Below are positions 21,071 through 28,415 of a DNA stretch of 32,103 bases, piece by piece. The DNA is from Anaerolineae bacterium (lineage in GTDB: Bacteria; Chloroflexota; Anaerolineae; Aggregatilineales; Phototrophicaceae): the NCBI GenBank assembly GCA_019912985.1, contig JAIOHN010000244.1:1-32103 (forward strand), in the 5' to 3' direction. The notes under the pieces are model-generated. The model was not told the DNA's origin and made no database searches. It saw only the letters and a program-made list of their open reading frames with translations. The translations under genes were made by a program, and so were the position numbers. Position 1 is the first letter of the stretch; every line of letters starts with the position of its first letter.

Positions 21071-22147
21071 GTGACCGTTACGACCAACCAGCGTACCACT
21101 CAGACTGAGAAACCTGCCTGGCAGCAGGCCGTTCGCCACTACCAACATTCCGACACATGGACCAGCGTCTGGCAGATTTTTAACAGTGTGGTCCCCTACT
21201 TTGTGCTGTGGTACCTGGCTTATCGCAGTTTAGAAGTTTCATACTTGCTGACACTGGGGATAGCCTTATTTGCCGGGTTATTTGGCATGCGTATTTTCAT
21301 CATTTTCCATGATTGCGGGCATGGCTCCTTTTTCAAATCTCGTCGTGCCAATAATATCGTTGGTGTCATCACGGGTATAATCACCTTTACGCCATACTAT
21401 GCCTGGCGGCAAGCGCATGCGGTTCACCATGCCACTGCTGGTGACCTTGACCGGCGCGGTACCGGAGATATCTGGACCCTGACTTACGACGAGTACAAAA
21501 CACTGTCACGCTGGAAGCAGATTTCCTACCGTCTCTATCGCAATCCGTTCATCATCTTTGTGATCGGCCCTGTGATTGACTTCGTCATTTTGCAGCGCCT
21601 GCCCTGGGTTTGCGCATCCGATAAACCGCGTGATAAGAACAGTGTCGCCTGGACGAACCTGGCACTACTGACCATTGCGATCGTCATGAGTCTGCTGATT
21701 GGCTGGAAAGAGTATCTCCTGGTTCAGATCCCGATCATCGCCATGGCATCCTCGATTGGCGTATGGCTGTTCTACGTGCAGCACCAGTATGAGAACACCT
21801 ATTGGGAACACCATGAAGATTGGGACTTCGCCACCGCTGCCCTCTATGGCAGTTCCTACTTCAAACTGCCGAAAGTGCTCCAATGGTTTAGCGGTAATAT
21901 CGGTTTTCACCATATCCATCACCTCAGCCCCCGTATTCCCAACTACAAGCTTGAAAACTGCCACAACGAAAATGAAATTTTCCAGGTTCAGCCATTGACT
22001 CTGCGCGCCAGCATCCAATCGATGCGTATCCGTGTCTGGGATGAAGACCGTCACAAAATGATCGGTTACTATAAACCCGGTGAGGAACATGGCGAGGAAC
22101 ACACCGAAGAAGCCCTCTATCCACTCGAGCCGAACCTGGGAGCGTAA
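21071..22147 (+). CDS. Membrane fatty acid desaturase, DesA/omega-6-like (358 aa, GTG start)
   Basis: Three His boxes: HDCGHGS, HAVHHA, HHIHH in a multi-TM protein. Confidence 0.92.
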   Translation: MTVTTNQRTTQTEKPAWQQAVRHYQHSDTWTSVWQIFNSVVPYFVLWYLAYRSLEVSYLLTLGIALFAGLFGMRIFIIFHDCGHGSFFKSRRANNIVGVITGIITFTPYYAWRQAHAVHHATAGDLDRRGTGDIWTLTYDEYKTLSRWKQISYRLYRNPFIIFVIGPVIDFVILQRLPWVCASDKPRDKNSVAWTNLALLTIAIVMSLLIGWKEYLLVQIPIIAMASSIGVWLFYVQHQYENTYWEHHEDWDFATAALYGSSYFKLPKVLQWFSGNIGFHHIHHLSPRIPNYKLENCHNENEIFQVQPLTLRASIQSMRIRVWDEDRHKMIGYYKPGEEHGEEHTEEALYPLEPNLGA

Positions 22148-22765: not shown

Positions 22766-23605
22766 CTAGACTCGACGCAGCAGCGCCCGGTACTTACCGG
22801 GTGAATGGCCGCACAAATTTTTGAATGCCACATAGAAATGACTGAGGGTGTGAAATCCGGCATCCAGTGCAATATCGGTCACACTGACATCCGTCGTCAA
22901 AAGCTGCTGCTGTGCATAAGCAATGCGACGCTGCGTTAAATAATCGGTAATGGTCACGCCAAAAGCACTCTTGAAAGTGGACATGGCGTAATTCGCATTG
23001 AGGCCGACCTGCGCCGCCACATCGCTGGCGCTAATCGACTCCTGAAACTGCTCGTTCATTACACGCGCCATTTGCTGCGCTTTGACTGGCACCGTCAGAC
23101 CATCATCAACAGGCGTATGTTCCGTCTCAGAGGGCCACAGGAGCGCGCAGCGATAGAGAAAAGCCTTTATCTCCATCAGCGCGATATGGCGATGCCCCAA
23201 TGCCGCATCCGCATACCACTGCCGGAACATCGCATCAGTATAAGTGAGCAAGCTGCGATCGGTGCTGCAAAACATCGAACCGGAAAGCAGCGCCAGCACA
23301 AAATCCTGCGGCAGCTCCCAGCGGAGCACCTCGCTCATAGGGATCGTGACGATACCCATTAAGGCGTCCACCGTGCAATCGACAAGCTGGTGTGGCACAG
23401 CCCCCCAGAAAACCGCATGTTCATGAGTCTGAATCTGAATGTGGCGACCGGCATGGGTATAAGTCACGCTGCCGCGCTCGATGAAATTCAGCTCAAGCTC
23501 GTTATGGCGGTGCGGTGGCATATTCTCCCCAACTGGAGATTTGCCGGACCATACTCGGAAGCCGTGGGTTTGCAGCGCAACCGGCTGTTTAAGATTTTGG
23601 ATCAT
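22766..23605 (-). CDS. AraC family transcriptional regulator with cupin-like N-terminal domain
   Basis: NMPPHRHNELELNFIERGSVTYTHAGRHIQI (cupin); SASDVAAQVGLNANYAMSTFKSAFGVTITDYLTQRRIAYAQQQLLTTDVSVTDIALDAGFHTLSHFYVAFKNLCGHSPGKYR. ATG at 23605 preceded by CAGGTGGGG SD; the track start at 23734 overlaps the divergent gene. Confidence 0.92.
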   Translation of the reverse strand: MIQNLKQPVALQTHGFRVWSGKSPVGENMPPHRHNELELNFIERGSVTYTHAGRHIQIQTHEHAVFWGAVPHQLVDCTVDALMGIVTIPMSEVLRWELPQDFVLALLSGSMFCSTDRSLLTYTDAMFRQWYADAALGHRHIALMEIKAFLYRCALLWPSETEHTPVDDGLTVPVKAQQMARVMNEQFQESISASDVAAQVGLNANYAMSTFKSAFGVTITDYLTQRRIAYAQQQLLTTDVSVTDIALDAGFHTLSHFYVAFKNLCGHSPGKYRALLRRV

Positions 23606-23714
23606 AGCCCCACCTGAGAATACAGGAAAAATATAGCAATATACCGGACGTTTTTCCAGTGATGTGCCTCTATACTGATAAACGCAAAAATTATAGATAA
23701 AGGGGTATATTCTG

Positions 23715-24542
23715 ATGCTGACCGATATGGACATTTATTTATTTGACCTGCGCGGTTATCTCATCCTGGAAAATGCGCTGACGCAGGATGAAGTTGCCGC
23801 CCTGAATGCGGGCATCGACGCAATCCCGCCGATGAAGCATGGCGAGTGGTTTGGTTACATTCAGTCACACACCTTCGGCGATGACGAAGGCACCAATTTG
23901 CAGCAGATCTACGAAGCGGGCGAACCCTTCGAACGTCTCATCGACCATCCTTCATGGATTGACAAAGTAAAACATTTTGTCGGCGGTGAAGGCACTTTCG
24001 ATTACCATCACGGCCCGCTCTTTATCGACGAAAACTTTGCCAATCTGCGCGGCCCCGGCGAGGCTATCGGCCTGCATTCCGGTGGACATACCGGCGTCAA
24101 GCGCAACCAGTTTCGCTTCCACAATGGCCGTTTTCAATGCGGTCAGGTCAACATCCTGATCGCGCTGACCGATATTGGCCCCGGTGATGGCGCGACCATG
24201 ATTATCCCCGGCAGTCACAAAGCCAACTTTGAAAATCCTGATTTTGAAAAGCACCGCATGGGCGGCGAGGAATCCTCTGTAGATAATGTCACTGGAGCGA
24301 TTGAAGCACAGATGAAAGCCGGAGACGCCCTGCTGTTTGTGGATGCCATCTCACATGGATCGGCCAAGCGGGTGAATCCCGGTGAGCGCCGCATCGTCGT
24401 CTACCGCTACGGGCCTTCCTGGGGCAATTTCCGTCACGGCTATCAGCCCTCGCCGGAGCTGCTGGAACGGCTGACACCGGAACGCCGTAAGATTGTCCAG
24501 CCGCTTCAAATCCTCCCGCGTGAGCCGCAGAAGCAGGTTTAA
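23715..24542 (+). CDS. Phytanoyl-CoA dioxygenase (PhyH) family protein (275 aa)
   Basis: LRGYLILENALTQDEVAALNAGID; LIALTDIGPGDGATMIIPGSHKANFENP; GDALLFVDAISHGSAKRVNPGERRIVVYRYGPSW. Confidence 0.9.
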   Translation: MLTDMDIYLFDLRGYLILENALTQDEVAALNAGIDAIPPMKHGEWFGYIQSHTFGDDEGTNLQQIYEAGEPFERLIDHPSWIDKVKHFVGGEGTFDYHHGPLFIDENFANLRGPGEAIGLHSGGHTGVKRNQFRFHNGRFQCGQVNILIALTDIGPGDGATMIIPGSHKANFENPDFEKHRMGGEESSVDNVTGAIEAQMKAGDALLFVDAISHGSAKRVNPGERRIVVYRYGPSWGNFRHGYQPSPELLERLTPERRKIVQPLQILPREPQKQV

Positions 24543-25491: not shown

Positions 25492-25505
25492 ATGGGATGC
25501 GCAGT

Positions 25506-25534
25506 ATCTTAGTATACCTTGCCCTTTATTTCAA
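25506..25534 (-). promoter_or_regulatory. Putative promoter of tRNA-Gln (TTGAAA-N17-TAAGAT on minus strand)
   Basis: -35 at 25529-25534, -10 at 25506-25511, 14 nt from the tRNA 5' end. Confidence 0.5.
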
Positions 25535-25676
25535 GACCTTTTTGGTGCCAAATGGTTTTTGTTTCACTTACTTTGGGTGTATCATTGTAATTATACTTAA
25601 CATAACACTCTCCCGTACTTTGCCCTCCCATAGATCATCGTACCCCTTATGCATTTACTGGTTCAGGAACTTAGCC

Positions 25677-28415
25677 ATGTACAGAATACTTATTCAAAGA
25701 TTGTTTTTAGTGGTCGCTGCTGTGTGTTTTTTAGCACCCGCAGCGATCATTTTAGCCCAGGAGGAAACTGCAGAACCACTCCCGACTGTGACCGATACCG
25801 CCACAGATCTCCCAGAGCCAACACAGGCACCACCGACAGAAACACCGCTGCCCACTGAAACCTTATCGCCAACTGAAACTGCCACCAGTATCCCCACAGC
25901 ATCCATGACACCGGAGGCAGAACGCACAGCTGAAGCTACTATGCCGCCCCCTGTTAGCTCGGATACGCCATCACCAACATCTCTTCCATCACCACAGCCC
26001 ATCCAACGTGGTGCAGCCCTGTTGCCGTGTGTCCCTATCAGTTTTGGCAGCCCTGCCACACAGCAGTCACTCTCGACAGATGAAGAGGGTTGTTTTACCT
26101 TCTCTGGCAACATTGGCGATGTCATCCGCGTCGAGATCACGGTCGTCAGTGGCAATTTTGGCGACCAGACTTTAAATCGCCCCAATTCCACAACCCTTGA
26201 TAGCACGATTTTTACGGAGGGTACCTATACCTTAGACGCGGATGGTACGCACACCCTGATTGTAGATCCTTCTGGAAGCAGCTCGCTCAATTATGATGTG
26301 CATATCCAGCGCCTGAATAACCCGGTGGGCTGTACCGCTTTGAACTTTGGCAATCCGTCTACGCAGCGCACAACCGCTGTGGGCGATGTCGAATGTTTCA
26401 CCTTTTCGGGCAACGCTGGTGATGTGATTCGTGTCGAAGATACCGTCATCAGTGGTAACTTCGGCGATCAGGAGATCGCTCGGCCTGATGGCAGCACACT
26501 CGACAGCAGTATCTTTACTGCGGACACCTATATTCTGGATGCGACCGGCACGCACACGCTCATCATTGATCCCGCTGGCACCAGTTCGCTCAACCACCGC
26601 ATCCACATTCAGCGCTTGAACAATCCGCTCACCTGTACCGCCCTGAGCTTTGGCAATCCATCCACACAACGTACCACCGCTGTCGGCGATGTGGACTGCT
26701 TCACGTTCTCCGGCACCACAGGTGATTTCATCCGGGTCGAGGTGACCGTCCTCAGTGGTAATTTTGTGGATCAGGAAATCGCTCGCCCGGATGGCAGCAC
26801 GCTTGACAGCAGTATCTTTACTGCGGACACCTACATTTTGGATGCCACTGGCACGCACACGCTCGTGATTGACCCCGCCGGGACCAGTTCGCTGAATTAC
26901 CGTGTGCATATCCAGCGCTTGAACAACCCGCTCACCTGCACAGCCTTGAACTTTGGCAATCCTTCGACACAGCGCACAACTGCCGTGGGTGATGTGGAAT
27001 GTTTCACCTTCACCGGCAATACTGGCGATATTATCCGGGTTGAGGAGACGGTCATCAGCGGTAATTTCGCCGACCAGGAGATCGTTCGGCCTGATGGCAG
27101 CACACTCGACAGCAGCATCTTTACTCAGGATACGTATATCCTGGATGCCACTGGCACCCACACCCTCCTGATTGATCCATCTGGTACCAGTTCGCTCAAT
27201 CACCGCGTCCATATCCAACGCTTGAATAACCCGGTGGGTTGTATCGCGCTGGGCATTCCAGGCACCTCCGCCACACAATCAACCAGTGTTGGTAATATTG
27301 GTTGTTTCACGTTTTCAGGCACATCGGGCACGGAGGTTCAGGTTGAGATCCTGGTAAACAACGGCAATTTCGCCGACCAGGAAGTGACTCGTCCTGATGG
27401 CACCACGCTCGACAACAGTATCTTCCGCGATGAAACCTATACGCTCGATACCACTGGCACCCATACCCTGCTGGTGGACCCATCTGGCACCAGTTCGCTG
27501 AGTTACCGTGTTCGTCTCACCTGCGCTTCATGCCCGCCGCCGCCCAAACCACCTGGCCCGCCAACACTTCAAACACCAGCGAACAGAGCTTCTCTCAACG
27601 ACAATACGCCAGCGTTTGCGTGGATGGCGGTGATAGATGCCACCAGCTACCAACTACAGGTAGACAATAGCTGCAATTTCAGAAGCCCGGAGATTGATAC
27701 TGCGCCAACACCATCCACATTCACGGCAACCACACCACTGCCGGATGGGCGTTACTGCTGGCGTGTGCGCGGCATCAACGCAGGCGGTGCCGGTCGCTGG
27801 AGCCGAAAGTGGCGTTTCACAATCGACACGATTGCGCCAGACGCACCGCTGCTCCGATCCCCCAAAGCAGATGCGGTTTCGAGCAACGCAAAACCAAGAT
27901 TGATCTGGCGATCTGTGCGTGGTGCGAAAACTTACCACCTGCAAATCGACAACGAACCGACGTTTGCCAACCCGCTGATTGTGGACGAAAGTGGTTTGAG
28001 ACGCCCGCTCTACCGGTTAACGGAGGCGCTGCCGCAGGGCACTTATCACTGGCGCGTTGTGGCGATCGATGCAGCCGGTAACGAGAGTGTGTTCAGCGAA
28101 GTGCGGATGTTTTCAATCAACATCATGCGCGCACCACGAGACGGTCAGACGATTCGATCATCGAAACCCGTGCGGGTCAGTTTCAAATGGAGTCGTGTGC
28201 CGGGTGCGCTGGGTTATGAGCTGGAAATTGCCACCAGCCCGGCCTTTGGCGGCACCGTAATCTACAGCGTGGAACTCACACGGCCAAACCACCGTTTACC
28301 AACTGTCTCGGCGCTGACGGATGGCACCTACTACTGGCGCGTCAATCTAAACCTCGGCAGCGGCTTAGTCGATTCACCATTTTCTCGAATGTTTATGATC
28401 GTGCCACGGTCGTAG
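25677..28415 (+). CDS. Large secreted repeat protein: signal peptide, Pro/Thr linker, five 101-aa PPC-like repeats, three Fn3-like domains (912 aa)
   Basis: MYRILIQRLFLVVAAVCFLAPAAIILAQ signal peptide at ATG 25677; track start 25497 is only an upstream extension adjoining the tRNA. Tandem repeats then LQTPANRASLNDNTPAFAWMAVIDATSYQLQVDN-type modules. Confidence 0.88.
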   Translation: MYRILIQRLFLVVAAVCFLAPAAIILAQEETAEPLPTVTDTATDLPEPTQAPPTETPLPTETLSPTETATSIPTASMTPEAERTAEATMPPPVSSDTPSPTSLPSPQPIQRGAALLPCVPISFGSPATQQSLSTDEEGCFTFSGNIGDVIRVEITVVSGNFGDQTLNRPNSTTLDSTIFTEGTYTLDADGTHTLIVDPSGSSSLNYDVHIQRLNNPVGCTALNFGNPSTQRTTAVGDVECFTFSGNAGDVIRVEDTVISGNFGDQEIARPDGSTLDSSIFTADTYILDATGTHTLIIDPAGTSSLNHRIHIQRLNNPLTCTALSFGNPSTQRTTAVGDVDCFTFSGTTGDFIRVEVTVLSGNFVDQEIARPDGSTLDSSIFTADTYILDATGTHTLVIDPAGTSSLNYRVHIQRLNNPLTCTALNFGNPSTQRTTAVGDVECFTFTGNTGDIIRVEETVISGNFADQEIVRPDGSTLDSSIFTQDTYILDATGTHTLLIDPSGTSSLNHRVHIQRLNNPVGCIALGIPGTSATQSTSVGNIGCFTFSGTSGTEVQVEILVNNGNFADQEVTRPDGTTLDNSIFRDETYTLDTTGTHTLLVDPSGTSSLSYRVRLTCASCPPPPKPPGPPTLQTPANRASLNDNTPAFAWMAVIDATSYQLQVDNSCNFRSPEIDTAPTPSTFTATTPLPDGRYCWRVRGINAGGAGRWSRKWRFTIDTIAPDAPLLRSPKADAVSSNAKPRLIWRSVRGAKTYHLQIDNEPTFANPLIVDESGLRRPLYRLTEALPQGTYHWRVVAIDAAGNESVFSEVRMFSINIMRAPRDGQTIRSSKPVRVSFKWSRVPGALGYELEIATSPAFGGTVIYSVELTRPNHRLPTVSALTDGTYYWRVNLNLGSGLVDSPFSRMFMIVPRS
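26028..27524 (+). repeat. Five tandem in-frame 303-nt coding repeats (last one slightly shortened/divergent)
   Basis: Repeat starts at Cys codons 26028, 26331, 26634, 26937, 27240: exact 303-nt spacing; consensus CTALNFGNPSTQRTTAVGDVECFTFSG...HTLIIDPAGTSSLNYRVHIQRLNNP. Confidence 0.95.

Follow-up and report, generated by a model that had tools for sequence, protein, structure and literature searches.

An acid-less PhyH-family gene of the HygX clade in an Anaerolineae bacterium: probably an unusual oxygenase rather than a halogenase

Enzymes of the PhyH family bind iron through an HxD...H triad, and the question raised by the 32,103 bp stretch of Anaerolineae DNA analyzed here (the window) is what is encoded by a PhyH-type gene in which Gly stands at the Asp site of this triad. 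An earlier note had suggested a halogenase-like, an alternatively liganded or a non-iron member of the family. The gene is an ORF at positions 23715-24542 of the plus strand, with an ATG start and a product of 275 aa. In a profile search, residues 10-226 match PF05721 (PhyH) with 88.5 bits against a cut-off of 22. The AF2 model (mean pLDDT 88.1, pTM 0.88) has PhyH-type structures as its top matches, so that both the curated cut-off and the double-stranded beta-helix fold of the family are found in this protein, while the iron triad is not. Two features of PhyH-type 2-oxoglutarate (2OG) enzymes, a distal H-x-S motif and an Arg 11 residues after the distal His, are both present. EctD and human PHYH have the fold, the H-x-S and the Arg in common with the 275 aa protein (in PHYH, the His and Arg are residues 264 and 275, with the same +11 spacing), but retain the HxD that is absent here. 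The protein scores only 28.7 bits with the ectoine hydroxylase profile TIGR02408, below the cut-off of 336.5. Based on the ORF, PF05721, the AF2 fold and the tree described below, we classify 23715-24542 as an acid-less PhyH-fold Fe(II)/2OG oxygenase gene of the HygX clade.

The absence of the acid from the canonical site, as the earlier note had claimed, is confirmed by alignment. H121-S122-G123 (24075-24083, plus strand) aligns exactly with the WHQD/WHRD site of HxD paralogs from the same genome, placing H121 as the proximal iron His and G123 where HxD enzymes have Asp. H121, G123, H214 and R225 are invariant in 82/82 close members and in all 25 distant homologs (roughly 29-33% identity); because position 123 is Gly in every one of these, the HxG is conserved rather than accidental. 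A second HxG sequence noted earlier, H136-N-G138, is indeed present, but H136 (24120-24122, plus strand) is not a ligand candidate because it is unconserved (His in only 59 of the 82 close members, otherwise mostly Tyr or Arg) and is modeled with lower confidence; this site was accordingly rejected. The distal His and later Arg are retained, again as proposed. H214-G-S216 (24354-24362, plus strand) comprises the distal iron His, found in 82/82 close members, and a Ser, found in 81/82, which by analogy with PhyH-like enzymes would contact the 2OG 5-carboxylate (PMC2871039). R225 (24387-24389, plus strand), located +11 from H214, is the predicted 5-carboxylate Arg based on its invariance and on comparison with EctD, where His-248 and Arg-259 are among the 2OG-binding features of PhyH-like enzymes (PMC2871039).

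If the acid is missing from HxG, a carboxylate might be provided from elsewhere in the protein. D105 and E106 (FIDE) were considered as a third ligand and rejected: they are invariant in close members but missing in distant homologs that share HxG. The candidate relocated carboxylate is D210 (24342-24344, plus strand), four residues before the distal His (position -4). This position is Asp in 82/82 close members, Glu in 25/25 distant homologs and Glu (E202) in HygX. In the AF2 model, D210 directly follows the strand formed by residues 205-209 and precedes H214 by four residues, a placement that makes proximity to the metal plausible. K169 of the PGSHK motif (24219-24221, plus strand) is a clade-specific Lys, present in 99% of the acid-less clade versus 32% of the HxD group, and from sequence it could simply pair with D210 as an ion-pair partner. 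D11 is a further mark of the clade (97% versus 17%).

A search of the genome collection identified 80 orthologs with 65-86% identity, distributed among Chloroflexota (28), Latescibacterota (21), Gemmatimonadota (13), Poribacteria (8), Verrucomicrobiota (3) and others represented singly, and the invariance of H121, G123, H214 and R225 spans at least nine named phyla. Such sequences are therefore common among environmental PhyH paralogs, which the earlier note had considered possible; they form a deep clade. Close relatives are nonetheless sparse in the window's own phylum, where 34 of 400 genomes have a match at E ≤ 1e-20, only a few of these above 50% identity. The dN/dS ratio is 0.03-0.10 for the computable pairs involving the window gene (one pair is saturated at synonymous sites) and 0.06-0.11 between neighboring orthologs. 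The gene is thus under strong purifying selection with the acid missing, and intact reading frames and low dN/dS rule out sequencing error or decay as the origin of HxG.

To place the protein, HygX was aligned with PhyH paralogs of the window's genome (30 matches) and of three complete genomes. The three genomes, G400 (L074), G401 (L048) and G402 (L095), are Latescibacterota/Poribacteria chromosomes of 5-6.5 Mb with 126-156 PhyH matches each, and 52-83 matches per genome to a profile of the acid-less clade at E ≤ 1e-6; high PhyH copy number has already been published for Poribacteria (PMC3909097). The aligned paralogs were reduced to 122 representatives with less than 60% identity, and a protein was called acid-less if its proximal His was not followed by Asp or Glu at +2. 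Asp or Glu occurs at -4 of the distal His in 58 of 63 acid-less representatives (one of them, L003, having an uncertain proximal His) versus 2 of 57 with HxD, and four more of the 63 carry an acid at -5 instead. In a quick tree of 91 rows with less than 50% identity, from which the trait columns were omitted, HygX (a long branch in this tree) and the acid-less proteins form essentially one clade of 40 members with an SH-aLRT value of 92. The 275 aa protein, which combines a non-acidic Hx motif with D210 at -4, groups with HygX apart from the HxD paralogs, and is in this respect ordinary for its clade.

On the tree, the -4 acid accounts for 2 changes and the loss of Asp for 3, or about one origin each. 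The swap of acid thus occurred about once and was retained over great divergence, and because of this near-single origin the association of the two traits is not independent evidence of compensation. L184 and L218 lie inside the acid-less clade with both HxD and a -4 acid, so the latter need not be a substitute for the former; L215 and L219 are likewise clade members with HxD and Glu at -4. Several other relatives depart from the usual pattern. L224, L225, L226, L229, L231, L233 and L234 are ORFs of about 520-610 aa with seemingly two PhyH domains, the halves of which have HxA, HxN or HxG and either Asp at -5 (MDGG..H) or no -4 acid; one half may be degenerate. In L003/L146 (from the window's own genome), L262 and L263, the proximal His is apparently replaced (RSDGG, RRDNG, RGDGG) while FTESL.HA, with Glu at -4, is retained. 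In the alignment, L246 is without the proximal His and L238 without both iron His residues.

HygX, from hygromycin B biosynthesis (PDB 4XC9, 4XCA, 4XCB and 4ZPI), is the nearest protein of known structure both by sequence (E = 1.1e-14 with phmmer, 1e-24 with a profile) and by fold, with 4XCA as the top Foldseek match of the AF2 model (E = 1.5e-17). Its structures with iron, with Ni/2OG and with Ni/2OG/hygromycin B all rank high in the fold search, the iron-bound structure being 4ZPI. The abstract of the HygX structure paper (PNAS 2015) reportedly mentions variation in metal coordination in HygX. Apart from the PhyH fold, the two proteins have in common an HxG (H102-G-G104 in LHGG of HygX), an acid at -4 of the distal His (E202 and H206 in LNEALMHG, corresponding to D210 and H214), an Arg at +11 (R217), an FD..G N-terminus and a GSHKANF motif. 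They differ in that identity is only about 25%, in a stretch of about 10 additional residues after HxG in HygX, and in that the HygX gene belongs to an antibiotic cluster, which the window gene, judged by the neighbors tested, does not. HygX is described as an enzyme of oxidative cyclization, as far as the title of a reference in PMC8748661 and a review (PMC8234114) indicate. The idea of a non-iron protein is unlikely, because HygX, which has HxG, is iron-bound in 4ZPI and because the HxS and Arg(+11) for 2OG binding are retained.

If the enzyme were a genuine Fe(II)/2OG halogenase, the vacated Asp site would be filled by chloride or bromide, which would be transferred to a free small molecule. 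The HxG of the 275 aa protein agrees with the HxG/A signature of these enzymes, SyrB2-type halogenases combine a PhyH-like fold with a missing HxD acid as this protein does, and BesD and WelO5 are halogenases with sequences unlike that of SyrB2. The chlorinating-enzyme profile TIGR01762, however, gives 15.5 bits against a cut-off of 226.3 (a survey of 400 genomes with this profile returned no matches, but neither did its controls), and SyrB2 is distant (profile E = 2.5e-5) compared with HygX. A -4 acid would bring negative charge near the vacant site; SyrB2 has Ser at this position. No NRPS/PKS, biosynthetic cluster or carrier-protein gene was found among the neighboring genes tested with profiles (AraC, DinB, fatty-acid desaturase, TPR, Ig-like protein, gltX and rodA), which sets the window gene apart from the carrier-protein context of SyrB2-type enzymes. 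HxG is moreover a feature of a deep clade with many copies per genome, and it also occurs in the hydroxylase AspH (PMC8252765). A change of Asp to Gly by itself usually gives no halogenation: P4H was not turned into a halogenase by an Asp to Gly/Ala change (PMC2767507), 8/10 plant enzymes with such a change did not halogenate (PMC12346261), and in a BesD homologue it was insufficient for efficient halogenation (PMC13244439). A halogenase is therefore very improbable, and the protein is more likely an unusual oxygenase; of the options raised at the outset, the data favor an alternatively liganded enzyme, since the clade is distinguished by a conserved Asp/Glu four residues before the distal His.

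How such an oxygenase would hold its iron can be read in two ways. The acid may have been relocated rather than lost in the HygX clade. Tentatively, an ancient PhyH branch could have moved the third iron ligand to the Asp/Glu at -4, thereby freeing the side of the metal that faces the substrate; the branch's only member of known structure would then be HygX, and the 275 aa protein a typical environmental member, a corollary that is equally tentative. Alternatively, iron might be held by H121 and H214 only, with water at the third site and a structural role for D210, for example in a pair with K169. This too is possible without being probable. AspH hydroxylates with two His residues at a natural HXG...H site and FIH retains some activity after an Asp-to-Gly change (PMC8252765); K169 and D210 are both invariant in the clade, and the -4 acid is also found in two members with HxD. 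AspH itself, although a 2OG oxygenase with the same kind of iron site (PMC8252765), belongs to another family, hydroxylates EGF-like domains and has no sequence relationship that we could find to the 275 aa protein. Against this reading, the -4 acid is nearly confined to proteins that lack the HxD acid, which suggests that its role is linked to the metal site, though it has a single origin. That the fold has been turned to ligand sensing or binding in a non-catalytic PhyH relative is highly unlikely. The missing acid is compatible with it, as are relatives that have lost one or both His residues (L238, L246) or, in the window's own genome, the usual proximal His (L146), but the remaining Fe and 2OG residues are invariant across wide divergence at low dN/dS, and the related HygX binds both Fe and 2OG.

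Upstream of the PhyH gene and divergent from it is an AraC-family regulator gene (22766-23734, minus strand) encoding a cupin-like sensor and an HTH (PF12833, 75.6 bits; PF00165, 54.9 bits). An internal Met near 23605 is the likelier start of this gene, in which case an intergenic gap of approximately 109 bp separates the two. A divergent AraC gene is also found upstream in six orthologs (L039, L049, L051, L053, L090 and L100), and the PhyH-family gene of the window is possibly controlled by its own AraC-type neighbor. Elsewhere in the window, the fatty-acid desaturase gene (21071-22147, plus strand) scores 439.5 bits with the Delta(5) desaturase DesA model, short of the cut-off of 500, and 25497-28415 (plus strand) encodes a likely surface-exposed protein of 972 aa with bacterial Ig-like (Big_13) and PPC domains. 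Neighbors of the orthologs include enolase-superfamily, sulfatase, FAD oxidoreductase, DHDPS, RraA-like, aldo/keto reductase and heparinase-like genes, a setting that suggests the breakdown of organic matter, carbohydrate-like or other. As these neighbors vary among orthologs and carry several themes rather than a single one, the neighborhood does not fix the substrate, which is perhaps a carbohydrate-related small molecule. Some bacterial HxD PhyH proteins demethylate 2'-O-methyl nucleosides (PMC12709175), but this activity cannot be transferred to the acid-less clade.

Our preferred explanation, to which we assign a probability of roughly 0.6, is that the gene encodes an active Fe(II)/2OG oxygenase of the HygX clade, with D210 near the vacated site, a small-molecule substrate and AraC-driven expression. 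This PhyH-family enzyme would be soluble and is predicted to bind iron through H121 and H214, and 2OG through R225 with S216. With G123 providing no carboxylate, D210, the -4 Asp/Glu, would probably sit in or beside the coordination position left empty, bound to iron directly or by way of water, and the HxD side would gain space for a substrate that is bulky and polar. The small molecule acted on is plausibly derived from a sugar, and the enzyme most likely hydroxylates it, closes a ring oxidatively or cleaves a C-O bond. The divergent AraC-type regulator probably drives expression in the presence of a ligand.

The HxG trait is not an isolated one, but is common to a large, old family that includes an antibiotic-pathway oxygenase. 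HxG is often taken to mean "halogenase", yet HygX, the one structurally known member of the clade, is an oxygenase. In Latescibacterota and Poribacteria, the clade is present in dozens of copies per genome, with HxG or its equivalents and a second conserved acid nearby, and a search for halogenases that relies only on HxG would give these genes the wrong label. Whether the iron carboxylate can relocate within the fold could also be tested simply in the acid-less clade, for which L184 and L218 (and L215 and L219) are useful as natural double-acid controls.
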